Shown: piece by piece, positions 11,255 to 56,906 of the stretch
How positions within the stretch are numbered: the stretch's first letter is position 1
How the letters are laid out: each line of letters starts with the position of its first letter
DNA from: a virus
Reading direction: 5' to 3' (one strand)
IMG/VR virus record: IMGVR_UViG_3300025151_000018
Span: 1-64,000 of that record
DNA: 64,000 nucleotides
Translations under genes and position numbers: made by a program
Notes under the pieces: generated by a model
The model's input: the letters and a program-made list of their open reading frames with translations, nothing else
Database searches by the model: none
Told to the model about the DNA's origin: nothing

Positions 11255-11277
11255 GGCTACCCTCTGTGGCTATTGAT

Positions 11278-12075
11278 ATGAGCAAGGCAGATATGACTAC
11301 TTATGTTGAAGGTTTGAATGATGAAGAAATTATGGCATTGGCTGGTGTCGGTTCAGCACTAAAGGTGTTTGGCACAGTCCTTGAAGCGGAATTTGAGAAG
11401 CGTAATGGTGTTCTATTAGATTCCGATAGTCGCAAAGAAAATGATGGCAAACCAAGTCATACTGCCAATCCTGTAATTGATATTGATATTCCCGGTGTGT
11501 CGTCTTTCATGCTAAGACCGACTACATCTAACAACAAAGCCAGAGGCAACGGTTGGGCTAAAGATGTTGGACTATCAGACAAAGTAAAGACAGGCAATGT
11601 GCCTCCGACTTTACTTGCATCTATTCTTGTTGATAAGATTGCTACTATGTTAGGTGGCAACATCAAAGACAGAGCATTGATTGATATTCAAGAGGCTCTT
11701 GCTTCTTGTATGACTATTACTGATGGTAAATTCAAGTTTGATAAGAAGCAAGCCCCGCCATTGAATCACCCTGTTGAGGTTGCTGAATGGTTGGATAAAC
11801 TATCTATGAATTTCATTGGCACTACTGCTGGCGCAAACCATGTCAGCATGGAGGTCATACCTATCCCTCAAGAAACACATTCCCCTGTTGAAGCCCCTGT
11901 TGGTGAAACTGATGAACCAGACCTTTCGTTGGCATCCCATCCCGTCAATGATCATCATGTTGCAGAGGCTACTAACGACCCAGAGGAAGAAAGCCCAGAT
12001 TCACCATCTGGCACTTCCTTCATGGATGCTCAAGTAAATATGCTTCTATTCGGTGGTTATGGTGGTGGAGAATGA
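11278..12075 (+). CDS. Hypothetical protein (265 aa)
   Basis: From ATG 11278 (an in-frame GTG at 11266 is also possible). Residues about 1-40 are helical, a central domain spans about 70-180 (PPTLLASILVDKIATMLGG, DRALIDIQEALASCM), and the C-terminal 80 residues are Pro/Glu/His-rich and probably disordered. The central part is alpha-helical and could be a small DNA- or protein-binding fold. No family recognised. The stop overlaps the next ATG. Confidence 0.55.
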   Translation: MSKADMTTYVEGLNDEEIMALAGVGSALKVFGTVLEAEFEKRNGVLLDSDSRKENDGKPSHTANPVIDIDIPGVSSFMLRPTTSNNKARGNGWAKDVGLSDKVKTGNVPPTLLASILVDKIATMLGGNIKDRALIDIQEALASCMTITDGKFKFDKKQAPPLNHPVEVAEWLDKLSMNFIGTTAGANHVSMEVIPIPQETHSPVEAPVGETDEPDLSLASHPVNDHHVAEATNDPEEESPDSPSGTSFMDAQVNMLLFGGYGGGE

Positions 12076-14432: not shown

Positions 14433-14781
14433 TTTGACATTGTTGCTTATCGCACAGAATGCTCGCATGAGGATTGCTGCGAGGCTCACAACAAAGCACA
14501 AGACCGGGTATCAAATAAGACCTGAATGTGATTTGTTTGGTCGCAATAAGATACCAGAAGATGCAGTTGAGTTTTTGGCTCGGCAGGGGCTACCAGCACA
14601 GAATAGATATACACAAACCCCACACTTAAACAGGCTATTGCGATTACTCAAACCATATCAGCACTTCACTAAAGATCCGCAGGGATTAAATGATGTGGCT
14701 AATCACATCGGTAGTCTGCGTTCTGTGAAGAACCATGAAGATGTGAAGAAAGTATTGGAGGAATTAGATGCCGTTATTTGA
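14419..14781 (+). CDS. Hypothetical basic protein (120 aa)
   Basis: ATG 14419 follows GGTGGGTGAT and overlaps the ligase-like gene by 14 nt; the longer start at 14389 is unlikely. The protein is Arg/Lys/His-rich and helical (LLLIAQNARMRIAARLTTK, HLNRLLRLLKPYQHF), with no metal site. It overlaps the next gene by 14 nt. Function unknown. Confidence 0.5.
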   Translation: MEKDDLTLLLIAQNARMRIAARLTTKHKTGYQIRPECDLFGRNKIPEDAVEFLARQGLPAQNRYTQTPHLNRLLRLLKPYQHFTKDPQGLNDVANHIGSLRSVKNHEDVKKVLEELDAVI

Positions 14782-15340
14782 TGTAGTCAAGGAGGATATT
14801 GATTTCTTTGAGGCGTGTCCTAATGCAGATCCATATCTTGATAGCGATGAAAAACTAAACTCATTCCATGTCGCCAGAATGTATCTAAAAGAAAGGGATA
14901 GAGTTAGGGTATCTCATGCCATTAACAATGCGAGCATGGGAATGAAGTTTTACATGACTCTCCTAATGAATACGGTTGAGCCACAATATCAGCAGGGAGT
15001 CATGTTCGCAGCGAGAGAGTTGTATAAGAAAGTGCCAGAGGATTTACTATCCTCCGTAATAGCATTCTCACACCCCGGTGGTAGCCATGCAAGAATCAAA
15101 TTCCCAGAGAAATATGACAAAATACCCACGAAACTGTTGGGTGATTTGGGGTTAAGGTCTGATCAATTAAGTTGGTTTTACAGGTTGAGAGAGAACGAAG
15201 CCTTCATTCGGCTGATGGCAGGGAACATTGAACCAAAGCATAGAAAACATATCCCCCTATTTGATACCACACTACTCAAAACTAAGGCTAAAAGCAATAC
15301 TGAAAGCCTGTTTAGTAAGAAATGGGAGGCTAATCAATGA
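14768..15340 (+). CDS. Hypothetical protein (190 aa)
   Basis: A mostly helical, charged protein (FHVARMYLKERDRVRVSHAI, MFAARELYKKVPEDLLSSV). No catalytic motif is apparent. It is the last gene before the promoter in front of the clamp loader and may belong to the preceding operon. Function unknown. Confidence 0.5.
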   Translation: MPLFDVVKEDIDFFEACPNADPYLDSDEKLNSFHVARMYLKERDRVRVSHAINNASMGMKFYMTLLMNTVEPQYQQGVMFAARELYKKVPEDLLSSVIAFSHPGGSHARIKFPEKYDKIPTKLLGDLGLRSDQLSWFYRLRENEAFIRLMAGNIEPKHRKHIPLFDTTLLKTKAKSNTESLFSKKWEANQ

Positions 15341-15357: not shown

Positions 15358-15398
15358 ACTACTCCCTATTGGCATAGGTGCAAGCGGAGGAATTTGTT

Positions 15399-16358
15399 AT
15401 GAGTCAGTTATGGATTAAACATAGACCAGATACCCTATCACACATGGTGGGGTTAGATAACCTAAAGAAAGATGTTCCCGGTTGGATTGTCTATGAAAAG
15501 AATAACTTTGTCTTGCGTTGTGGTGGTGTTATCTTTTCAGGTAAGCCGGGAACAGGTAAAACAAGTGCAGCGAGAGCGATAGGTAAAGATGCTCTTGGAT
15601 CTGCGTTTGAGGCAAACTACCATGTATTCAATGCCTCTGACGATAGAGGAATACAATTCATTAGAGATAGGCTGAAAGGTTTAGCACAACAGAAGGCTAT
15701 TAACTCCACATTCAAAATTATTAACTTAGATGAAGCCGATGGTTTGACTAAAGATGCACAAGATGCTTTGCGACAAATCATAGAAGAAACTTCATCACAT
15801 ACCCTATGGATTCTAACTTGTAATAGGGTGTCAAAGATTATCCCTGCCTTGAGATCAAGGCTACCGACATACAGTTTCAATCCTCTTGATGAAGATGAAT
15901 CAGAGGCTTTCCTTGCAAGTGTCATTGAAGAAGAAGGGCTACCAGCAAAGTGGGTTGAGGATTTACCTGCTCTTGTTTCTAAGTGCAAGGGTGATATGAG
16001 AGCGTGTCTAAAGACATTACAGATATGCAATCCTGATGAAGATGATGGTCTTAAATCACATCTTAGAGAGGATAATGCACTAATACATGATTTACATCAA
16101 ACGCTAATTCAACAAGACTATGAAAGTAGTCTGTCTATTGCAAATGACATTGTGAAGTCAGGGTTGAACCGTGAAGATATAATTACAGTTTTACATAATT
16201 CATTGTTATTTGAATTTCAAGATGGTGGTTTAGGTATTGCCATTGTATTGAAACGCCTGTTGATATTAGGTCAATGGGCTGCTAAGTCGCCAGATTGGAC
16301 TTCTGGCGATCTCCTATTCCTCCATGCAATGATTGGAGATTATCACAACAGAGGTTGA
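15399..16358 (+). CDS. rfcS: Clamp loader, RFC small-subunit-like AAA+ ATPase
   Basis: 319 aa from ATG 15399 with GCGGAGG 8 nt upstream (the GTG at 15378 is rejected). AAA+ motifs: Walker A GKPGTGKT (48-55), Walker B LDEAD (110-114), sensor 1 in TLWILTCNRVSKI, and SRL near residue 150 in the position of the RFC box/arginine finger. Length matches archaeal RFC small subunits (about 320 aa). It would load the PCNA-like clamp encoded 3 kb downstream; no RFC large subunit is visible, so it may act as a homo-oligomer or with the host subunit. First gene of the replisome block. Magroviruses are described as encoding a clamp loader small subunit. Confidence 0.85.
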   Translation: MSQLWIKHRPDTLSHMVGLDNLKKDVPGWIVYEKNNFVLRCGGVIFSGKPGTGKTSAARAIGKDALGSAFEANYHVFNASDDRGIQFIRDRLKGLAQQKAINSTFKIINLDEADGLTKDAQDALRQIIEETSSHTLWILTCNRVSKIIPALRSRLPTYSFNPLDEDESEAFLASVIEEEGLPAKWVEDLPALVSKCKGDMRACLKTLQICNPDEDDGLKSHLREDNALIHDLHQTLIQQDYESSLSIANDIVKSGLNREDIITVLHNSLLFEFQDGGLGIAIVLKRLLILGQWAAKSPDWTSGDLLFLHAMIGDYHNRG

Positions 16359-17709: not shown

Positions 17710-18908
17710 TGGGAACAGGATTCTTAGACGGATTTGAGCCAAAGAAGGGTAATTTTGAACCAGAGCCAAAGGGCAAAGGAAAGAAGGCTTCTAAGGCTAA
17801 GACAAAGCCAAATACCACTAAGGTAGTTGAAGAGCCTGTTGTTCAAGGAACACAGGTTGTTGATGATTCATTTGATGCTGACAATGCAAGAGAAGCAAAA
17901 GCCTTGCAACCAGATCCTATCGTTGAAGAACCTAAGCAACAAAAGACTCAAGCATTACCTAATGCTAATTCCGCTATTCAGCGTATGATTGCATCAGCAA
18001 GAGTCCAAATGCCAGCAAAGCACAATTATGTCCTTGCAGGTATCGCTGGCCCACCTAAGTCTGGTAAAAGCGGTGGTGTCCTTGATAGCCGAACCAAAGA
18101 GGAAATCAAGAACGGTGCTGAAATAGCACACCTTGACTTTGATATGGGTGGTCTATCAACAGTAGCAGCGCACCATAGCGACAGTCCGGGCATTCTTGTA
18201 TTCAACCCTTGGGAGTTTAATTATGACTCTGAAACAAATGATTCTTATGATTTCCCTGCTACATACACAAAGACAATCAATCTATTGAAAGGTCTGTTAG
18301 AGCAGGTTGAGTATCAAAGAGCATACTATTCCGAACATGGTAAAATGCCTAAGCCTTATCTCAAAACTGTGGTGTTTGATGGTGCAGATCAATGGTTGCA
18401 CATCTGTGAAACAGTAATGAAGATTGAGGACTTAGAGTTGGGTGCTGATGGTCTTGATGCAGCAGTATATCTCCGTCAGCATGAGAAGGGTGATGCTAAG
18501 AAAAAGAGCGTTAGCCGATTCAATTGGAATCTAAGGACTATCAGATACCAAACTGCCATTCACCTATTGCGTGAGTTGTGCCGATTGGGTGTGCATTGTT
18601 ATGTTATCACACACATGAAACCCGGTTATGACTCATCAGGTAATGAGGTCGCAGGTGCTGATAAACCTAAGTGGCATTCCGATACAGAGGGTCAATTACA
18701 ACAGGTCATCTATACCGAATTAGAAGAAGAGCGTAATGAATTGGGCGAATTAACAGGTGTTGTCAAAGCATACGGTGTTGTTGTTGCTAACCGCACCAGC
18801 CTTGCATCACCAGAGCGTTTCCTTATCTTTGAGCGTAATTCCGATGGTGGAGTATGGCATGGTTGGCCGGGTATTGCAGAGGGCGACTTTACAGGGGGTG
18901 TTGAATGA
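17709..18908 (+). CDS. RadA/RecA-like P-loop ATPase
   Basis: 399 aa from ATG 17709, overlapping the preceding stop. The N-terminal 90 residues are Lys/Pro-rich and disordered-looking. Walker A is GPPKSGKS (114-121) and Walker B is TVVFDGADQW with Asp224. This matches the RecA-like/AAA_24 ATPases found in phages and in magroviruses as RadA-like. A helix-hairpin-helix domain of true RadA is not seen. Likely roles are recombination or recombination-dependent replication. It lies directly upstream of the sliding clamp gene with a 4-nt overlap. Confidence 0.65.
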   Translation: MGTGFLDGFEPKKGNFEPEPKGKGKKASKAKTKPNTTKVVEEPVVQGTQVVDDSFDADNAREAKALQPDPIVEEPKQQKTQALPNANSAIQRMIASARVQMPAKHNYVLAGIAGPPKSGKSGGVLDSRTKEEIKNGAEIAHLDFDMGGLSTVAAHHSDSPGILVFNPWEFNYDSETNDSYDFPATYTKTINLLKGLLEQVEYQRAYYSEHGKMPKPYLKTVVFDGADQWLHICETVMKIEDLELGADGLDAAVYLRQHEKGDAKKKSVSRFNWNLRTIRYQTAIHLLRELCRLGVHCYVITHMKPGYDSSGNEVAGADKPKWHSDTEGQLQQVIYTELEEERNELGELTGVVKAYGVVVANRTSLASPERFLIFERNSDGGVWHGWPGIAEGDFTGGVE

Positions 18909-19699
18909 TGACTAAGATGAGCGTAAATCAAGGTCTATTCCTAAACTTCCTTAGAGGCTTCGCAGGTATGGAGGATATTGTCATTACAGTATCAGAAGAA
19001 GGCTATCGTGCATCAGGCACTATGGAACGATCATACTATGTTGAAAAGTGGGTTGAATACAGAGATGGTGAATCTTGTGATGAAGCAGGTAGTATTACTA
19101 TCGGTCAATTAGAATTGTTCAAAGCACTTGTAGCAAGTTGTGGCACAGGCATTATGTCTATTTCACAAGATTATGATACTATCCGTGTCCGTAGCGAAGA
19201 AGCCGACTTTACCATTCCGACAATAGCGGAGGCTAACTCTCAACAGGGTGTTGAAGTTGTAGCCGATATGGTAAAACTGTCAAGTGCTGACAATTGGGAT
19301 AAGTTTGGCGAAGCCGACATTCAATTCAATTCAACCTATGAAGCGGATAAGTTTCAGCAATTGAAGAATGCAGGTAAAGCAATCCAAACAGGTGCATTGT
19401 ATTCCGTTGAAATACAACAGGACAATACATTGTTGCTAACTGTTGTTCGTGATCAGATACGCTTCTCGGTGGATTTAGATGCCGATGAATTTTCAGTCTT
19501 TGAAGCAGGGGAGAATGTAATCCTCTGGTTCGGAAAGTGGCTTATGGATGCTCTCAAGGCTATGCCGGGTAAGGGAACAGTCCGTGTGCTTGGTGGTGCT
19601 GATGCACCATTGATAATCAAGCATGAAGCCCCAGACAATGAAGCATGGGGAACACTATGCGTCATTGCACCCCGGCAAGAGTCGGGGGATAATGCGTGA
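18905..19699 (+). CDS. pcn: Sliding clamp, PCNA-like
   Basis: 264 aa, close to the usual 245-265 aa of archaeal PCNA. The C-terminal strand pattern (PLIIKHEAPDNEAWGTLCVI then APR) matches the PCNA end, where PLxI...LAPR is conserved. Two topologically similar halves are suggested by repeated strand runs. It would tether the polymerase encoded next; start and stop overlap the neighbours by 4 nt on both sides. Three proteins of this window end in QxxLF and the polymerase in PLF, possible docking peptides for this clamp. Confidence 0.75.
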   Translation: MMTKMSVNQGLFLNFLRGFAGMEDIVITVSEEGYRASGTMERSYYVEKWVEYRDGESCDEAGSITIGQLELFKALVASCGTGIMSISQDYDTIRVRSEEADFTIPTIAEANSQQGVEVVADMVKLSSADNWDKFGEADIQFNSTYEADKFQQLKNAGKAIQTGALYSVEIQQDNTLLLTVVRDQIRFSVDLDADEFSVFEAGENVILWFGKWLMDALKAMPGKGTVRVLGGADAPLIIKHEAPDNEAWGTLCVIAPRQESGDNA

Positions 19700-22044
19700 T
19701 TATTGAGGCACTTGAACAAGATACATCAATGGATATTTTTCTCCGCTTTCGTGATGAAACGGGGAATGTGATGGAGAAAATTGTTGAGAAGGTTGAACCG
19801 TATTTCTATGTCCGTATGGAGGACATTGATGACATATTGCAGAGGTTTGAAACATCAGGATTGCAATATGGAGTTGGTTATGAAACAGGTGGCTATTGGG
19901 CTTTCAATCCCGATGACCCTGAAAACCCTATTGAATTGATGATGATTACTTGCAGTAAAACTTCTGATGTTAGAAGGCTGCGAGATTTGGCTATGGAATC
20001 ATGGGAGGCTGATGTTGATTTCAAGGACAGGTATCTTATTGACAATGTTCCCTTAGAAGATATGCCAAATTGGTATGACTACATGGTTAGAGCAGGTGGC
20101 TTCGATCTTGAATGGAATAGAGATGAAGAAATAACTGCTATGGGTTTCACCACAAATGGTGAACAAGTCCATCAATGGGCTTGGCATCCTAATTTACCAC
20201 AAATCAATCGGTCATGGATTCAACCATATTGCTTCTTCTTTGAAAATGAAAAAGAAATGCTCATTCATTTTGCTGATTACTTCTCGGACTTAGATCCAGA
20301 CATCATCACAACATGGGCGGGTAATCGTGCTGATTGGCCTATGATATACAAGCGATACAGGTTTCATGAATTAGATTTGGATTGGTTATCTTCAATACCT
20401 AACAGACAATCTGGTATGACTCCACCAATGAAGCCATTACCGAGAGATGGTTCATATCAAGAAGGCACACAAGTTGTGTTAGGTCGCTTAACATTAGATT
20501 TGGCTGACAGGAATCATGGCTTTGAGCGTGTATGGAAAGATAGTGGCAACGGTCAATTAGGAGATAGAAGATTGGGTTCTGTTGCTAAAGAAGCATTCCC
20601 CGATAATCCCGAATGGTGGAAAGTGGATTTTGAGAATGACCCAGAGTTAGAAGGTAAATGCGATAACCACCACGATCTATGGCTACACCACTTCAACAAA
20701 TTCCTTCAATACCATAGGGGAGATGTGCTACTAACAGATAGGTTAGACCGAGCATATCATGTTGGGAGATTCTTTAGTGCTTTACAGGCGGTTTGTGGCG
20801 TATCATACAAATCTGTATTTACAGTTAGTAAATTCGCCAGAGGTCAATTGCGAAGGCGAGCCAAATACAAAGCCCCATCAGCAAATTACAATTTACAGAA
20901 GCAAGGCTATCCCGGTGGCTTTGTATCAAAACCAAAAGGTGGTCGGCATCACAATGTAGCGGTTCTTGATTACAGAGCCATGTATGCTGAAATACAGAGG
21001 GGAGGAAATATCAGTCCTGAAACAAGAAGGAATGCACCGGGCAAAGACATCAAGCAATTACCCAACGGAACATATTGGTATCAAGGTAAAGTCGGCATAT
21101 TGCCACAGTTGCAAATGGATTTAGCCGATGCTCGCAATAAAGCGAAGGCGGAGATGAAGAAGCATGAGGCAAGTAGCAACGAGTATGCAGGTTTCAATGC
21201 TTTGCAGTTGGCGTATAAGAGAGCAGCAGCGAGTTGCTATGGTCTGATGGGTATGGAGGGCAACGGTGAATCCGATATGGTAGTTGCATCAACAATCACA
21301 TTCATGGGGCGTAGCCTTGTTGAGAGGTTAATGGAAATATGCGGTGAAATGGGTTATGAGCCACTTGCGGGTCATACGGATAGCGCATACATCGGCATAG
21401 GCGATGCTGACGGTGATAAAATTGCTAAGGAATTAACCAAGCGCATACAAGAGGAATATGACTCTGATCGGTTCGTTGTTGAGTTTGAGAAACTAATGAG
21501 GTCATGGGTCGCAGCGAATGATAAGAAGAATAGAAACTTCGGTTGGTGCATACACCCAAAAGAAGGATTACATTGCACAGGTTTTGAATTGAAGAAAAGT
21601 AATGCAGCATCCATCACAAAGCGTGTGCAAGAAGAAGCATTCATTTCATTGTGTCGTGATGATGGCGACAGAAAAGCGATTGATGATATTGTATTCGGTG
21701 CTATTGATGAAGTGAAGAATGGCAACATTAGCGTTGATGAAATCACAATGTGGGGCAGGTTAAGTAAAGATCCAGAGAAGTATGGTAATGGAAACTTCTG
21801 GGGTGCAGCAGCCAAATACAACAAAAGGAATGATAACAAATTCAAATCGGGTGATAGCGTTCCTCACATTTACACCACAAAAGGCATAGAAGCATATCAA
21901 ACAGATGAAGATGCTAAGAAATTGCGAGTTGATTGGACTACTGTTATATCTAATCAAATTATAGCCCCTGTTGCGCTCATTTACGATGCAATGGGATGGT
22001 CGCAACCAGACGCATCGGGGGCGAGAGCCAAGCCATTATTTTAG
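19696..22044 (+). CDS. polB: Family B DNA polymerase
   Basis: 782 aa, starting at GTG 19696 that overlaps the clamp stop (GTGA) after GGGGGA. Exonuclease I motif FDLEW (136-140); an exonuclease II candidate GNRADWPMI near 210. Polymerase motif A is LDYRAMY with Asp425, motif B is KRAAASCYG (508-516), and motif C is HTDS (560-563). The usual DTDS first Asp is His560 here, while Asp562 is kept. Length agrees with archaeal PolB. The C-terminus ends KPLF, resembling the tails of the three methyltransferases. The replicative polymerase of the virus. Confidence 0.9.
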   Translation: MIIEALEQDTSMDIFLRFRDETGNVMEKIVEKVEPYFYVRMEDIDDILQRFETSGLQYGVGYETGGYWAFNPDDPENPIELMMITCSKTSDVRRLRDLAMESWEADVDFKDRYLIDNVPLEDMPNWYDYMVRAGGFDLEWNRDEEITAMGFTTNGEQVHQWAWHPNLPQINRSWIQPYCFFFENEKEMLIHFADYFSDLDPDIITTWAGNRADWPMIYKRYRFHELDLDWLSSIPNRQSGMTPPMKPLPRDGSYQEGTQVVLGRLTLDLADRNHGFERVWKDSGNGQLGDRRLGSVAKEAFPDNPEWWKVDFENDPELEGKCDNHHDLWLHHFNKFLQYHRGDVLLTDRLDRAYHVGRFFSALQAVCGVSYKSVFTVSKFARGQLRRRAKYKAPSANYNLQKQGYPGGFVSKPKGGRHHNVAVLDYRAMYAEIQRGGNISPETRRNAPGKDIKQLPNGTYWYQGKVGILPQLQMDLADARNKAKAEMKKHEASSNEYAGFNALQLAYKRAAASCYGLMGMEGNGESDMVVASTITFMGRSLVERLMEICGEMGYEPLAGHTDSAYIGIGDADGDKIAKELTKRIQEEYDSDRFVVEFEKLMRSWVAANDKKNRNFGWCIHPKEGLHCTGFELKKSNAASITKRVQEEAFISLCRDDGDRKAIDDIVFGAIDEVKNGNISVDEITMWGRLSKDPEKYGNGNFWGAAAKYNKRNDNKFKSGDSVPHIYTTKGIEAYQTDEDAKKLRVDWTTVISNQIIAPVALIYDAMGWSQPDASGARAKPLF

Positions 22045-22052
22045 GTGATATT

Positions 22053-22991
22053 ATGATTACACACAAGCCTCCGAAAGCATATCCAATACCAAACCATGAG
22101 GGTCTATTCTCATGTTATGATTGGCATCCAGACATGGCTGACAATATACTACCCAGAATGAGCAAATCATCTGTTATGTCGGACTTCGGCTTCTGTCAGC
22201 AACAGTATGGAATCAAGAGAATCATTGGTATGAAAGAGCCACAGAACGATGCTATGATTAGAGGAACGAATGTTCACGACTCGCTTGAGTATTTCTATGA
22301 TAATGTGGATATTGAGAAGGCTTCTGATATGGATCAAGAACAGTTGCGGATTTACTTCAAGAGTTGCTTTGGCAAACCAGAAAACGCAAGAGAGCCACAG
22401 GAAATGTGGCATTTAGATGAGGACTTGCATATTGACAGGTTATGTGAAGCAGAGGTTCAGCGTTTCATGGTATGCGACCCACAATACTTCTTGCCAACGG
22501 GCAACGAGTTAGAAGTGGATTTGGTTCACGAGATAGAAGTGGATGGCATACCACAAAAGATACATTTCAACGGATTTATTGACAGAGTATTCACTAATCC
22601 TGATGGGTCGCTTCATATCCATGAATTGAAAACAGGTAAATGGCTCAAGAATGGTAAAGTCAGCAAAATCAAAGAGGAAACTATGCGAAAGGAAATGGCG
22701 TTCTATGTTTGGCTTCTAAACAAGACCGACCCATCATTGAGGATTACTCATTGGGGTTGGGATCATACAGGTGGTGATGAGATATTCCGCCATGTTGAAC
22801 CATGCAGGGTTGAAGAAATCCAGAAGATGATTGCACAAATGCAAGACTGTGTTAGAAAGCATAGGAAATACAAGGGAGATGGCGACCTTTCACCGTTCAA
22901 CCTGTTAAATCCGGGCGCACAGTTTAGGATATGCGATCCTTGGTGTGCGGTCAAAGAGTTTTGTCCGAGATATGCGGAGGCTGAAATATGA
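22053..22991 (+). CDS. Cas4/RecB-like PD-(D/E)XK nuclease with Fe-S cysteines
   Basis: 312 aa from ATG 22053, preceded by AGGTGAT (the ATG at 21996 lies inside the polymerase gene). Nuclease core: Asp177 in NGFIDRV, and E191-x-K193 in HELKTGK, the RecB/Cas4 pattern. GTNVHDSLEYF gives the upstream His. Cys48 plus Cys294, Cys298 and Cys304 at the C-terminus form the split four-cysteine cluster of Cas4/AddB. A 5' or 3' single-strand exonuclease used in recombination or end processing is expected. The stop overlaps the methyltransferase ATG. Confidence 0.75.
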   Translation: MITHKPPKAYPIPNHEGLFSCYDWHPDMADNILPRMSKSSVMSDFGFCQQQYGIKRIIGMKEPQNDAMIRGTNVHDSLEYFYDNVDIEKASDMDQEQLRIYFKSCFGKPENAREPQEMWHLDEDLHIDRLCEAEVQRFMVCDPQYFLPTGNELEVDLVHEIEVDGIPQKIHFNGFIDRVFTNPDGSLHIHELKTGKWLKNGKVSKIKEETMRKEMAFYVWLLNKTDPSLRITHWGWDHTGGDEIFRHVEPCRVEEIQKMIAQMQDCVRKHRKYKGDGDLSPFNLLNPGAQFRICDPWCAVKEFCPRYAEAEI

Positions 22992-24301
22992 AGGATTTGC
23001 AGGTTTTGATTGGAGATTGTAAGGAAACGCTAAGGCAGTTGCCAGACAAAAGCGTTCACACTTGTATAACATCACCACCGTATTACGGATTAAGGGATTA
23101 CGGAACGGCTGAATGGGAGGGTGGAGATCCTGATTGCGAGCATTCAATCAGCCACTTTACAGACCCAAAGAAGCCAAATGTGGATAGGCCATCACGAAAG
23201 CCAGAGGATAGGAAGGTTTGCAACAAGTGTGGTGCTATCAGAACCGACAGTCAAATTGGTTTAGAAGATACCCCAGAGGAATTTATTGAAAACTTAGTTG
23301 AAGTATTCCGAGAGGTTAAGCGTGTATTGCGTGATGATGGCACACTATGGTTGAATTTAGGCGATACCTATTGGGGCGGTAAAGGCGCAAGCGGTCAAAT
23401 ATCAGCCGATAAGCAAGAAGCCAGAACAAATACAATAAGCACAAAGCATTCTCATGTCGGTGGTTCTAAACAAACAAGGCCGACAGATAGGACACACGGT
23501 ATCATCAAACCGAAGGATTTGATTGGCATACCTTGGATGGTTGCCCTTGCACTAAGGGCTGATGGTTGGTATTTGCGACAGGATATAATCTGGCAAAAAC
23601 CAAACCCCATGCCTGAATCTGTTAAAGATAGATGCACAAAGGCACATGAATACATTTTCTTACTATCCAAATCTAAGAAATACTACTACGATCATGAAGC
23701 AGTAAAACAGAGGACACAAGATACGGTTCAAGGTAAAAGAGGTCAAACGACATTCAGAAACAAAACCGAATCTATGCTAAAAGACAGGACTTGGGAACAT
23801 CATTACTCCGTATTTGGGAAACGCAATAGGCATTCAGTATGGAAAGTGCCTGTTAGACCGTTTAAGGAGGCACACTTTGCAGTATATCCACCAGAATTGA
23901 TTGAGCCTTGCATACTCGCTGGAACATCAGCAAAGGGTTGTTGTTCCGAATGTGGAGAACCATATAAGAGGTTGATTGAAACTAAGCGACCACCGACAAG
24001 ACAGGTAAATGCAAGGGATGTTCCCGGTCAAGAAAGGCATGGTTCTCTCGGTGTTGAAAGATTTGACGAGCCTATCAAGACTACAACAATTGGTTGGGAA
24101 TTAAGTTGTGATTGTAATGCTGATATTGTGCCATGCACAGTTTTAGATCCGTTTGGTGGCTCTGGAACAACCGCAGCAGTTGCACTAAAACACCAGCGAC
24201 AAGCGATATTGTGTGAGTTAAATGAAGATTATGTTGATATTCAACCATTAAGAATTGAAAAGATTAGTGGCAGAGTTGAGGGGCAACAGACATTGTTTTG
24301 A
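22988..24301 (+). CDS. DNA methyltransferase, beta class (SPPY; probable N4-cytosine or N6-adenine)
   Basis: 437 aa. Motif IV SPPY at 29-32 precedes the SAM-binding motif DPFGGSG at 387-393, the order of beta-class amino-methyltransferases; SPPY is typical of N4-cytosine enzymes but also occurs in N6-adenine ones. Two zinc knuckles lie in between: CEHS...CNKCG near residues 53-80 and CCSECGEPY near 320. It has no cognate restriction gene nearby, so it is an orphan that probably protects viral DNA. The C-terminus ends QQTLF, a QxxLF tail shared with the other two methyltransferases. Confidence 0.85.
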   Translation: MKDLQVLIGDCKETLRQLPDKSVHTCITSPPYYGLRDYGTAEWEGGDPDCEHSISHFTDPKKPNVDRPSRKPEDRKVCNKCGAIRTDSQIGLEDTPEEFIENLVEVFREVKRVLRDDGTLWLNLGDTYWGGKGASGQISADKQEARTNTISTKHSHVGGSKQTRPTDRTHGIIKPKDLIGIPWMVALALRADGWYLRQDIIWQKPNPMPESVKDRCTKAHEYIFLLSKSKKYYYDHEAVKQRTQDTVQGKRGQTTFRNKTESMLKDRTWEHHYSVFGKRNRHSVWKVPVRPFKEAHFAVYPPELIEPCILAGTSAKGCCSECGEPYKRLIETKRPPTRQVNARDVPGQERHGSLGVERFDEPIKTTTIGWELSCDCNADIVPCTVLDPFGGSGTTAAVALKHQRQAILCELNEDYVDIQPLRIEKISGRVEGQQTLF

Positions 24302-24560: not shown

Positions 24561-25715
24561 ATGACATACGAATTGATACATGGCGATTGCATCAAGGTTC
24601 TCCGTGAAATGGAGGACAATAGTGTTGATGCAGTTGCCAGCGACCCTCCGTATGGCATTGAGTTTATGGCTAAGAAATGGGATTATGATGTGCCTTCTGT
24701 TGAAATGTGGAAAGAATGCTTTAGGGTATTAAAGCCCGGAGGCTATTTACTATCCTTTGCGGGTTCACGCACATATCACCGTATGGCGGTGAACATTGAA
24801 GATGCAGGGTTTGAAATCCGTGATCAGATAATGTGGATTTACGGGTCTGGTTTTCCGAAAAGCCTCAATCTCAAAGATGATTGGGAGGGTTGGGGAACGG
24901 CTCTTAAACCAGCGCACGAGCCTATTGTAGTCGCTCGCAAGCCCTTCAAGGGAACAGTAGCCGAGAATGTGCTTGAGCATGGAACAGGGGCTTTGAACAT
25001 TGACGGTTGCAGAGTTGGTAATTTGGTTCAAGATACTTCAAGGAACGGGCGTAGTAAAGAAGTCCATGCTACTACTGTGTTTCAGGCTCGTTTGGGTGAA
25101 GAAGTTGATGGCAAAATTACAGTTGGTCGCTGGCCTTCTAACATTATTTTTGATGAAGAAGCGGGTGCTATGCTTGACGAACAAAGTGGAACGAGCAAAT
25201 CAACCGTTAGGCCACCAACAGGTAAAGGAATACTTGACCCAGATAAAGGTTGGAATAACAATTCAATGACAGACAAAACCATACGGGGCTTCAACGATTC
25301 TGGGGGCGCATCACGATTCTTTTACTGTGCTAAAGCGAGCAAACAGGAGAGAGATTTGGGCTTAGAATCATTTGAAGATGGCAAATCAAGAAAGTGGCGT
25401 GATGATAAGGGTATGAAATATACAGGTAGCGGTAATTTACGAGATGAAACAGGGAAAAACATACACCCAACAGTCAAGCCTGTTGCCTTGATGAAATACC
25501 TATGCCGACTCATCACACCACCTAACGGTGTTGTCCTTGACCCATTCATGGGATCTGGCACAACGGGCATAGCAGCAGCCACAGAAGGTTTCAATTTTAT
25601 TGGTATAGAGCGTGAAGAAGAATACATTGAGATTGCTCGCCATAGAATAGCACATTGGGTTGAAGAAAAAGAAGAAGTCCTTAGAGAAAAGAGAAGGCAA
25701 ACTACACTATTTTGA
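24561..25715 (+). CDS. DNA N6-adenine methyltransferase, beta class (DPPY)
   Basis: 384 aa. DPPY at 28-31, then a conserved target region (WKECFRVLKPGGYLLSFAG), HPTVKP near 312, and SAM motif DPFMGSG at 327-333, in beta-class order. DPPY indicates N6-adenine methylation. The middle (GALNIDGCRV, RWPSNIIFDEEA, GGASRFFYCAKAS) matches widespread phage orphan methyltransferases. Ends RRQTTLF, a QxxLF tail. No restriction partner visible. Confidence 0.9.
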   Translation: MTYELIHGDCIKVLREMEDNSVDAVASDPPYGIEFMAKKWDYDVPSVEMWKECFRVLKPGGYLLSFAGSRTYHRMAVNIEDAGFEIRDQIMWIYGSGFPKSLNLKDDWEGWGTALKPAHEPIVVARKPFKGTVAENVLEHGTGALNIDGCRVGNLVQDTSRNGRSKEVHATTVFQARLGEEVDGKITVGRWPSNIIFDEEAGAMLDEQSGTSKSTVRPPTGKGILDPDKGWNNNSMTDKTIRGFNDSGGASRFFYCAKASKQERDLGLESFEDGKSRKWRDDKGMKYTGSGNLRDETGKNIHPTVKPVALMKYLCRLITPPNGVVLDPFMGSGTTGIAAATEGFNFIGIEREEEYIEIARHRIAHWVEEKEEVLREKRRQTTLF

Positions 25716-30906: not shown

Positions 30907-31044
30907 ATGAGTATGTGCAAGGAATGCGGTCATGCGATTAGTGTGAGGAATACAAGAACATCAAGAAGCAAAAGAGAAAGCATTTGCGGTAAATGTTATC
31001 TGCATCGTAAGGCGAAAGAGAGAAAACTCAAGGGTTTGGCTTAG
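30907..31044 (+). CDS. Mini zinc-ribbon protein (45 aa), last gene of the + arm
   Basis: MCKECGHAI and ICGKCYLH, about 25 residues apart, form a zinc ribbon joined by a very basic Arg/Ser linker (RNTRTSRSKRES) and a basic tail, suggesting nucleic-acid binding. The start at 30907 lies 1 nt after the preceding stop; longer upstream starts in this frame would cover that gene. Its TAG overlaps the stop of the oppositely oriented methyltransferase gene by 4 nt. Confidence 0.55.
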   Translation: MSMCKECGHAISVRNTRTSRSKRESICGKCYLHRKAKERKLKGLA

Positions 31045-32333
31045 AATAGCCTTCTTTGCATTTCCGACATATCAACAGTATTTGGGAAATTTCTCAAACC
31101 AATCATCTCAACCTTTGCTTCTTTGTTGCCTTTTGGTTTCCTAAGCCAAGGGTGTATTGTCATATCAGCATCTTGTGCAGCATCTATGAGATTATACATA
31201 GGTTCACCGTCTTTGTCATACATATAGTTGGAATAAATGACCGGGCCTTCTAACTCTGACGCTATACGCAGGGTATCTCTTTGCAAATCATCAAAGGTCT
31301 TGCCCTGCAATTGCTCTGCCGAACCGCCATAAGAAATATCTCTCCCCTGATATGGTGGATCTAGATAGGTAGTGTGCTGCGGTGTCAAAAACTCTGATGT
31401 TTGTCTTAAATCACCTGTGTGTATATCAACATCTTTCAATCTGGCAGCATAAGGGTCAAGGTTGATTGAGCCAACATCGTGTGGCATATATCTAACGCTT
31501 GAACTTCTAAATGAGCCTTCTGCATTAGGTATCTTGATTTTCCCCTCTGTGTATGGAACGGCAGGTTTTTCACCCCAATCTTCATAGGAAAACATACCAT
31601 CTCTGTATTGAAGGTTTGAACCAACCAGCAAATGAGCAAGCCTCATCAAATCATCATCGTCTAATTTTTCACCCATCACATCTCTCCGATAGCGTATTTC
31701 ATTCAATTCATTCATCATACGCACTTGATCATCATAATCTTGGGCTATATTCACATCACCCATGCCCTGTTGTAGTTGTGTCATAAGATTCGTCATATCT
31801 GGGTTAATATCGCCATATAGACCCCTCCCCTGATTCATTCCCAAAATGTATGAACCACTACCACCGAATAATTCAGCAGGTATCTTATCTTTACCAGCCA
31901 TTTGTGATAAGGCTCTCAATTGTGGTGCTATTTGCGTTTTGCCACCAATCCAATTGACTACCGTTGGCAACATCTCGGTTTCAGGGTTTGTAAAACCGGG
32001 TAAAGATGCAAAGATTTTGTTGTAATCTCCACCCGCCTTTCTCGCTCTCGCCATTTCAGCCCACGGCTTACCCCTTCTTTTGCCACCATCACCAAAATTT
32101 AACTCTGGTAAAATACCCGTAGTTGAAGTTTTGTTGGCCTTTGCGCTATTGTATCGTTCTAAAATATCCTTAATCATGGGGTCTATCTCGTCAATACTCT
32201 CGTATTCTTTCCCTCTGAAACTAATACTTTTCATCAGATCCCACGCATGTTGGGCTGCACGATCATGGGATATAACACCACGCACATTATTCCCTCCGAT
32301 GCCAATGCCGTGATAGACCACCATGCTCGGCAT
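31041..32333 (-). CDS. Dam-type (D12 class) DNA N6-adenine methyltransferase with N-terminal extension
   Basis: 430 aa. D12-class motifs: NWIGGKTQI (128-135, the FxGxK-like motif), ELFGGSGSY (154-162), GDINPDM (174-180) and catalytic DPPY at 325-328. The core starts near residue 120; the first about 115 residues form an extra basic segment (GGKRRGKPWAEMARARK) not typical of Dam enzymes. It is the last gene of the virion operon, far from the two early methyltransferases, so it would act late, perhaps before or during packaging. Ends QRRLF, the QxxLF tail. ATG 32333 or 32324. Confidence 0.85.
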   Translation of the reverse strand: MPSMVVYHGIGIGGNNVRGVISHDRAAQHAWDLMKSISFRGKEYESIDEIDPMIKDILERYNSAKANKTSTTGILPELNFGDGGKRRGKPWAEMARARKAGGDYNKIFASLPGFTNPETEMLPTVVNWIGGKTQIAPQLRALSQMAGKDKIPAELFGGSGSYILGMNQGRGLYGDINPDMTNLMTQLQQGMGDVNIAQDYDDQVRMMNELNEIRYRRDVMGEKLDDDDLMRLAHLLVGSNLQYRDGMFSYEDWGEKPAVPYTEGKIKIPNAEGSFRSSSVRYMPHDVGSINLDPYAARLKDVDIHTGDLRQTSEFLTPQHTTYLDPPYQGRDISYGGSAEQLQGKTFDDLQRDTLRIASELEGPVIYSNYMYDKDGEPMYNLIDAAQDADMTIHPWLRKPKGNKEAKVEMIGLRNFPNTVDMSEMQRRLF

Positions 32334-32475
32334 CCATCATTAAGTCCATATCGTTCTCAATAGGCTCTATGTCCTCCGAAAAATCAAACTTAATGGTTAG
32401 TGCATAAAGGTATAATGCAACCGAAAAGATTATAATACATATAAGCACCGAGAGCGCACCGAAAATTGAAATCAT
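32287..32475 (-). CDS. Small single-span membrane protein (62 aa)
   Basis: Residues 3-28 form a continuous hydrophobic segment (FGALSVLICIIIFSVALYLY), followed by an acidic tail and a basic C-terminus; no cleavable signal is obvious. It overlaps the next gene by 47 nt. Size, membrane span and place near the end of the virion operon would suit a holin-like or membrane-anchored exit protein, but nothing proves that. Confidence 0.45.
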   Translation of the reverse strand: MISIFGALSVLICIIIFSVALYLYALTIKFDFSEDIEPIENDMDLMMDAEHGGLSRHWHRRE

Positions 32476-32747
32476 CTGCTTCTCGCCACCCTTTTACCAC
32501 CTGCACCTAACTGCCTCCGCATCTTAGGTCTTGCACCAGAGCCACTACCCCTGACTTTAGATCGTTTGTATCTGTTAGCGGTTCGCTTACTCTTGTTCTT
32601 GCGTGATACTCCCCACGCCCTACGCTTGGCTTGACGCTCGGCTCTCCCTGCTAAGTTGTTCTTAGTGTAGCCTCTAAATTCGCCCTTCAATACTCCCCAA
32701 CCCGCAGCGATTGCTCGCTCTTCAACTTGGGTCGGGCTTTGCGCCAT
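32472..32747 (-). CDS. Small very basic protein (91 aa)
   Basis: About a third of the residues are Arg or Lys, with runs such as RKNKSKRTANRYKRSKVRG and a Gly-rich, basic tail. The N-terminus is helical and less charged. Likely nucleic-acid binding, perhaps packaged with the genome. It overlaps the genes on both sides. No family recognised. Confidence 0.5.
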   Translation of the reverse strand: MAQSPTQVEERAIAAGWGVLKGEFRGYTKNNLAGRAERQAKRRAWGVSRKNKSKRTANRYKRSKVRGSGSGARPKMRRQLGAGGKRVARSR

Positions 32748-56449: not shown

Positions 56450-56899
56450 CTAATTCCATACCGTTGATTCGCCATCTTCATCATAAGACCAACCGGGTTC
56501 ATTCCAACATTCTTGGCATAGACCATTACGGCATTCCGCCTGTTGTTCACAGTCATTACACCAATCATCTTCAATTTCCCATTTTAAGGCTTCTTCCGGC
56601 CAGCCATCTTCATCATCATCTGGCTCTCGTAGCATATCCGCACCCGGTCCTGCTTTCATGCGTTGTGATAATTCTTCGTAGTTATCCATCCATGAACCAA
56701 CGATAGCCTGTGCTTCTCGCTTATCAATACCTATTTTTTCCAATTCCATTGGCGCACCGAACATATTGATGCGCCCAGATGCTTGCAGATCAAAGAGAAG
56801 TTGATACCATCTATCCCATTCAGGGTTAATAGGTGTGTTTTTCAAAATAGACCACCCACGAGAAAGTGCCTTCTTCAAAACATCTGTGTCTTTCATCAT
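56450..56899 (-). CDS. Tail-region protein with C-terminal zinc knuckle (149 aa)
   Basis: Residues 1-90 are helical (KKALSRGWSILKN, AQAIVGSWMDNYEELSQRM), then CNDCEQQAECRNGLCQECW gives four or five Cys in a zinc-knuckle arrangement, ending in an acidic tail. It lies between the tail tube and chaperone genes. Possible morphogenesis factor; not recognised. Confidence 0.5.
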   Translation of the reverse strand: MMKDTDVLKKALSRGWSILKNTPINPEWDRWYQLLFDLQASGRINMFGAPMELEKIGIDKREAQAIVGSWMDNYEELSQRMKAGPGADMLREPDDDEDGWPEEALKWEIEDDWCNDCEQQAECRNGLCQECWNEPGWSYDEDGESTVWN

Positions 56900-56906
56900 C
56901 AATCCC

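Follow-up and report, generated by a model that had tools for sequence, protein, structure and literature searches.

Short C-terminal tails shared by the DNA polymerase and methyltransferases of different classes in a virus with archaeal-type replication machinery are candidate sliding-clamp-binding peptides

Family B DNA polymerases (PolB) and clamp loaders bind the sliding clamp in well-studied systems, and we know of no well-studied clamp system in which PolB is not a clamp client. The archaeal and eukaryotic clients of PCNA carry the PIP box (QxxhxxaaX), and those of the bacterial beta-clamp carry the motif QL[SD]LF. Among curated PCNA motifs, 43% lack one of the two PIP aromatics and 10% lack both (PMC6881253). 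The T4 proteins gp43, gp55, and gp33 have interchangeable C-terminal clamp tails (PMC2988020), so that a viral polymerase and non-replication clients, in this case transcription factors, use a short hydrophobic C-terminal epitope on the clamp gp45. Human DNMT1 carries a PCNA-binding motif (PMC9690074; PMC6881253), and its tethering to a PCNA-type clamp has been proposed to serve methylation of newly replicated DNA (PMC9690074). A putative adenine methyltransferase was copurified with NucS and PCNA from extracts of Pyrococcus abyssi (PMC4929162), which may hint at a similar arrangement in cellular archaea. In the literature searched, which was incomplete, no report of viral methyltransferases with clamp-binding tails was found; one magrovirus paper makes no mention of methyltransferases or PCNA.

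The virus described here combines a PolB and a PCNA-like clamp with several DNA methyltransferases. The window, meaning the whole stretch of DNA that was analyzed, is the first 64 kb of viral record IMGVR_UViG_3300025151_000018, which totals 100,888 bases. The replication machinery is archaeal-type and is encoded in a module between about 14.8 and 30 kb of the plus strand, together with a PD-(D/E)XK nuclease and an ERCC4 nuclease. The third methyltransferase (M3) lies on the minus strand, where the replication side meets the structural module. The genes considered are as follows.

14768..15340, plus strand: likely second clamp-loader subunit (T4 gp62- or RFC1-collar-like), from a helical model and structure matches
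15378..16358, plus strand: clamp-loader AAA+ subunit of the RFC small-subunit type (Pfam AAA, 2.2e-15; DNA_pol3_delta2, 1.1e-10)
18905..19699, plus strand: sliding clamp, a divergent PCNA of 264 amino acids, from AlphaFold2, Foldseek, and a profile match to the archaeal PCNA C terminus
19696..22044, plus strand: family B DNA polymerase (PolB), 782 amino acids (Pfam, 7.7e-29)
22988..24301, plus strand: M1, an N4/N6 (PF01555) DNA methyltransferase of 437 amino acids (Pfam, 1.5e-43)
24561..25715, plus strand: M2, an N4/N6 (PF01555) DNA methyltransferase of 384 amino acids (Pfam, 4.1e-37)
31041..32333, minus strand: M3, a D12-class N6-adenine methyltransferase of 430 amino acids (Pfam PF02086, 2.6e-12)

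For the AAA+ loader subunit, the Pfam profile Rep_fac_C scored under its cut-off (0.0056). Outside the window, the record also carries an HMG-CoA-lyase-like gene (90338-91162, plus strand; PF00682, 6.4e-20), a feature reported for Aoguangviridae (PMC10768690).

A sequence-only reading of the window had listed similar C termini for the three methyltransferases and PolB, and direct reading confirms all four.

24284..24298, plus strand: QQTLF tail of M1 (...GQQTLF)
25698..25712, plus strand: QTTLF tail of M2 (...RQTTLF)
31044..31058, minus strand: QRRLF tail of M3 (...MQRRLF)
22030..22041, plus strand: KPLF end of PolB (...AKPLF)

That reading was also correct that the tail codons differ among the methyltransferases (M1, CAA CAG ACA TTG TTT; M2, CAA ACT ACA CTA TTT; M3, CAA AGA AGG CTA TTC) and that at least two enzyme classes are involved: M1 and M2 match N6_N4_Mtase (149.8 and 128.7 bits against a gathering score of 26.7), and M3 matches MethyltransfD12 (47.5 bits against 22). 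Its likening of the PolB end to these tails holds for the terminal hydrophobic-aromatic pair and not for the glutamine, which PolB lacks. Among the 94 genes of the whole record (nonoverlapping open reading frames of at least 60 amino acids), LF ends are confined to PolB, M1, M2, and M3, and Q..LF ends to the three methyltransferases. The number of Q..LF ends expected from residue frequencies is 0.0096 (probability of three or more, about 1.4e-7), a post hoc statistic that therefore called for an outside test in related viruses. From the sequences and a structural model of the clamp, we consider it likely that these short C-terminal peptides bind the clamp.

The residues of the focal tails mark them as shortened, C-terminal PIP-like peptides that are neither canonical PIP boxes nor canonical beta-clamp motifs. 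The resemblance to both that had been proposed stands in part. Q1 and the aliphatic L4 of the PIP box are present in the methyltransferase tails, whereas the aromatics of positions 7 and 8 are missing because the tails end at position 5. Q1, L4, and F5 of the beta-clamp motif fall in the same register, but its hydrophobic position 2 is occupied by Q, T, or R, and the viral clamp has the size and fold of PCNA. In related viruses, the M1 and M2 proteins carry a single aromatic, at PIP position 7 (LFDW, LFDF, or LLDF), and ends such as QRTLFDW, QKSLFDW, QRSLFDF, and QKTFDDWW connect the focal tails to PIP boxes. By function, the focal tails would compare best with the T4 epitopes and the DNMT1 motif, with differences from each. 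The T4-type tail differs in sequence (P-SSM4 gp43 ends ...ASLEFLFG), and the clients of the focal virus are DNA-modification enzymes rather than transcription factors. DNMT1 is a single cellular C5 enzyme, whereas several enzyme classes occur here within one virus family that has its own clamp, and the tails are shortened and at the extreme C terminus, unlike the DNMT1 motif. In cyanophage P-SSM4, the dam product (L209:1168-2148), a relative of M1, ends in NPLADLLY, loosely like the end of its own gp43, and may carry a parallel T4-type clamp tail.

Searches with PolB, the clamp, and the methyltransferases recovered about 19 related viral contigs, in which PolB was 55 to 80% identical. Gene families were clustered from 15 contigs, the focal one included, and 33 families were present in at least three genomes. 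A tail was counted when the C terminus matched L[FW], [LFI]xD[FW], [LFI][DE][FW], or WW(N), a pattern drawn up after many ends had been seen, so that the counting by family was not blind; close relationships among some of the 15 contigs also mean that not every count is independent. With these limits, all members carried the tail in 4 of the 33 families (PolB, 15/15; N4/N6 methyltransferases, 17/17; D12, 11/11; C5, 3/3), and the tail was absent from 27. The remaining families were partial: 6 of 12 members in the family of the 14768 gene and 1 of 8 in that of the 11266 gene. The latter family (11266-12075), whose function is unassigned, has varied ends (LLFGGYGGGE, ILLFGE, VVLW, and FIDNWGA) and is possibly another clamp client. 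Only 2 of 98 rarer genes had the tail, one encoding a weakly matching methyltransferase that ends ..PPGRLF (PHROG 757, 0.00024) and the other a PAPS-reductase-like protein. Of 988 genes from phage loci unrelated to these viruses, 11 (1.1%) matched this pattern. After sequences at least 80% alike were merged, the tail was present in 25 of 25 methyltransferases, a set made up of those encoded in the replication module or at the M3 slot and the product of one newly found C5 gene.

Alignment of these relatives, the check that the sequence-only reading had proposed, showed the tails to be conserved, more so than the linkers that precede them. Q380 and L383 of M2 are invariant while the preceding residues vary; L429 and F430 of M3 are invariant, and the tail glutamine is kept in its relatives. 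The M3 relatives were recovered through the PolB neighborhood; an initial scan of viral contigs by sequence alone had found none, and there were none among named phages. Ends of M1 relatives include QRTLFDW, QKTFDDWW, and QRSLLDF, and those of PolB relatives are PLF, SLW, ALW, PLW, QEWW, and QDWWN. The polymerase and methyltransferase alphabets overlap (LF, LW, DW, and WW) with no one-to-one match, and strict covariation between the two sets was considered and is not claimed.

Enzymes of different classes can end alike in the same position. In three sister viruses, a C5 methyltransferase (PF00145, 7e-60 to 2e-62) is located before or between the N4/N6 methyltransferases, with which it shares no homology, and these three C5 enzymes end in QKTLW, QKKLW, and QKSLW. 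A Pfam search of the full records revealed an extra C5 gene in one relative, G006 (PF00145, 2.3e-12), that ends in QTRLF; it was found after the pattern had been written and is the only blind instance. The PAPS-reductase-like protein, from sister virus IMGVR_UViG_3300031629_000002 (L091:12299-13258), is encoded directly after PolB and ends in KPKELW. Its best match in a defense library is SspD (PADLOC, 2e-21), a DNA phosphorothioation protein, and its sequence suggests a clamp-tethered DNA phosphorothioation enzyme.

It is very unlikely that the tails are merely inherited pieces of methyltransferase domains, or bacterial beta-clamp motifs acquired by horizontal gene transfer, that have no function on the viral clamp. 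Some bacterial and phage relatives of M1 do end near QMDVF, QLSLF, QLKLF, or DAPLF, and some of the bacterial ones end in PLF-like or QMDVF-like segments, so the M1 tail could be inherited in part. The strict motif occurs in 13 of 74 chromosomal M1 relatives, largely from one Pseudomonas lineage; the corresponding figures are 2 of 250 for other genes and 0.16 for shuffled tails. Among dereplicated viral M1 relatives, 8 of 41 have Q..[LIM][FWL] within the last 24 residues, compared with 0.9 in shuffles; M1-type tails are thus enriched over shuffles but far from universal, so no general rule is claimed. Inheritance leaves unexplained why PolB, the D12 and C5 enzymes, and the SspD-like protein all end alike, and why the tail glutamine and leucine are conserved although the residues before them vary. 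The LFDW and DDWW extensions, moreover, head toward the PIP form and not the beta-clamp form.

Clamp binding by the tails can also be judged against proteins expected to contact a clamp. PolB is one such internal control, and PIP-like sequences (QRGLADYV and QSGLAQFM) terminate PolB in the haloviruses HRTV-27 and HGTV-1. The product of 14768-15340 is another, being likely the partner clamp-loader subunit on the basis of its helical model (pLDDT 72). Its structure matches comprised clamp-loader or related AAA+ collar domains in 39 of 42 rows (Z of 5 to 8; best other, 2.4), and its top Foldseek match was T4 gp62, with a weak E value of 0.23. The family often ends in GALF, ATLW, or GFLW in relatives, and the focal protein has a comparable stretch close to its terminus.

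15305..15325, plus strand: near-terminal SLFSKKW of the 14768-15340 protein, from an alignment in which relatives have TLFSGEW and SLFDGDW

Relatives of this protein also share an N-terminal M-x-L-F/Y-(D/E) motif (MPLFDVV, MNLFEDE, MALFEDE, and MMLYDET), which is possibly a second clamp contact.

The methyltransferases without the tail are informative. The sole complete tailless N4/N6 methyltransferase in the group examined (G005, L229:1435-2856, 473 amino acids) carries a fused Mrr restriction-nuclease domain, so its C terminus is occupied. Within the structural module, four of five D12-like proteins have no tail. With the fused and structural-module enzymes mostly tailless, the tail is not general to the methyltransferases of these viruses and accompanies the replication module. 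Nor is it general to archaeal viruses, since the methyltransferases read in HRTV-27 and HGTV-1 have no such tails. An 808-amino-acid focal protein encoded outside the window (record 91134-93560, minus strand) has an ambiguous end, RQLDDF. It combines a weak D12 methyltransferase domain (Pfam, 2.3e-4; PHROG methyltransferase, 2.3e-16) with a GP88 domain, and the two are separate genes in some relatives.

Short hydrophobic C termini can act as degrons. The tails might accordingly be degradation tags, or they might be virion-packaging signals, given that M3 adjoins the structural module and has a GW-type motif near its N terminus. Either role is highly improbable: the tails are confined to the replisome and DNA-modifying enzymes, the polymerase included, most structural-module methyltransferases lack them, and so do the great majority of conserved families. 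The GW-type motif itself, (A/L)xx(G/A)W(x)(V/I)(L/I)K, recurs near the N terminus of otherwise different late-strand proteins (32472-32747 and 56450-56902 in the window and 84970-85401 and 93553-94245 in the record, all on the minus strand). The similar stretch in M3 has a counterpart at the C terminus of D12-like late proteins of relatives (AFEHGWAVLK), and the motif is possibly a virion or assembly signal.

Clamp binding by the tails requires a suitable clamp, and the earlier claim that the virus encodes its own is borne out by both profile and modeled fold. The 18905-19699 product matched no Pfam or PHROG profile, and a profile built from 13 relatives matches archaeal PCNA (0.00074). Its AlphaFold2 monomer model (264 amino acids, pLDDT 88) resembles PCNA and 9-1-1 subunits (Foldseek, 7.9e-13; Z of about 21; rmsd of about 3 Å over about 230 residues) and identifies the protein, as modeled, as a divergent PCNA with the two-domain PCNA fold. 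In human numbering, the PCNA groove comprises residues 40 to 44, the interdomain connecting loop (IDCL) at 117 to 135, 230 to 235, and 251 to 253 (PMC6881253). The viral DAPL stretch (P235 invariant) and APR stretch (P256 and R257 invariant, A255 nearly so) align to the C-terminal parts of this groove, whereas the interdomain connector, a loop in PCNA, is modeled as a helix at 111 to 128. Of the hydrophobic pocket for LF on which the sequence-only reading depended, the C-terminal elements are therefore kept, and the groove may differ at the connector. The modeled helix may alter the groove and could explain peptides shorter than PIP boxes.

The tails could instead bind host PCNA, or both clamps, for instance so that host forks are methylated or taken over. 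In favor of this, the groove of PCNA is conserved, and PCNA accepts PIP-like peptides whose sequences differ widely (PMC6881253). This possibility is unlikely: a tail of this kind is also present on the viral PolB, whose gene lies next to that of the viral clamp, and a very divergent viral clamp together with tails shorter than canonical archaeal PIPs fits an adapted pair.

Docking on the virus's own clamp would make clients of PolB, the N4/N6, D12, and C5 methyltransferases, the SspD-like enzyme of one relative, and probably one loader subunit. Each client would present a poorly conserved stretch followed by a hydrophobic-aromatic tip, usually with a glutamine three residues before the leucine, and this tip would fit into the peptide groove on the PCNA-like clamp. 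The polymerase and the modification enzymes would share or compete for groove sites. A clamp left behind or passed on would let the methyltransferases act on fresh duplex, and tethering would keep them behind the polymerase, on viral DNA that has just been copied; we propose that both strands would so be methylated before host restriction acts. Such replication-coupled methylation is probably the purpose of the tails, a proposal we hold with somewhat less confidence than clamp binding itself. Whether the peptide also works as a transferable clamp address, such that DNA-modifying enzymes acquired by these viruses receive a minimal C-terminal peptide matched to the viral PCNA whatever their chemistry (N4/N6, N6 of the D12 class, C5, and possibly phosphorothioation), is a more evenly balanced question.

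Timely modification of new viral DNA, ahead of cleavage by host restriction, is usually ascribed to diffusion. The sequence rule described here suggests instead a replisome to which modification is connected by way of the clamp, with the polymerase and unrelated enzymes sharing a docking site. With this rule, a few C-terminal residues would allow clamp clients to be predicted in uncultured viruses, and the principle seen with DNMT1 and PCNA would be extended to viruses. If the address-tag reading is true, self-marking would be a built-in step of viral replication.
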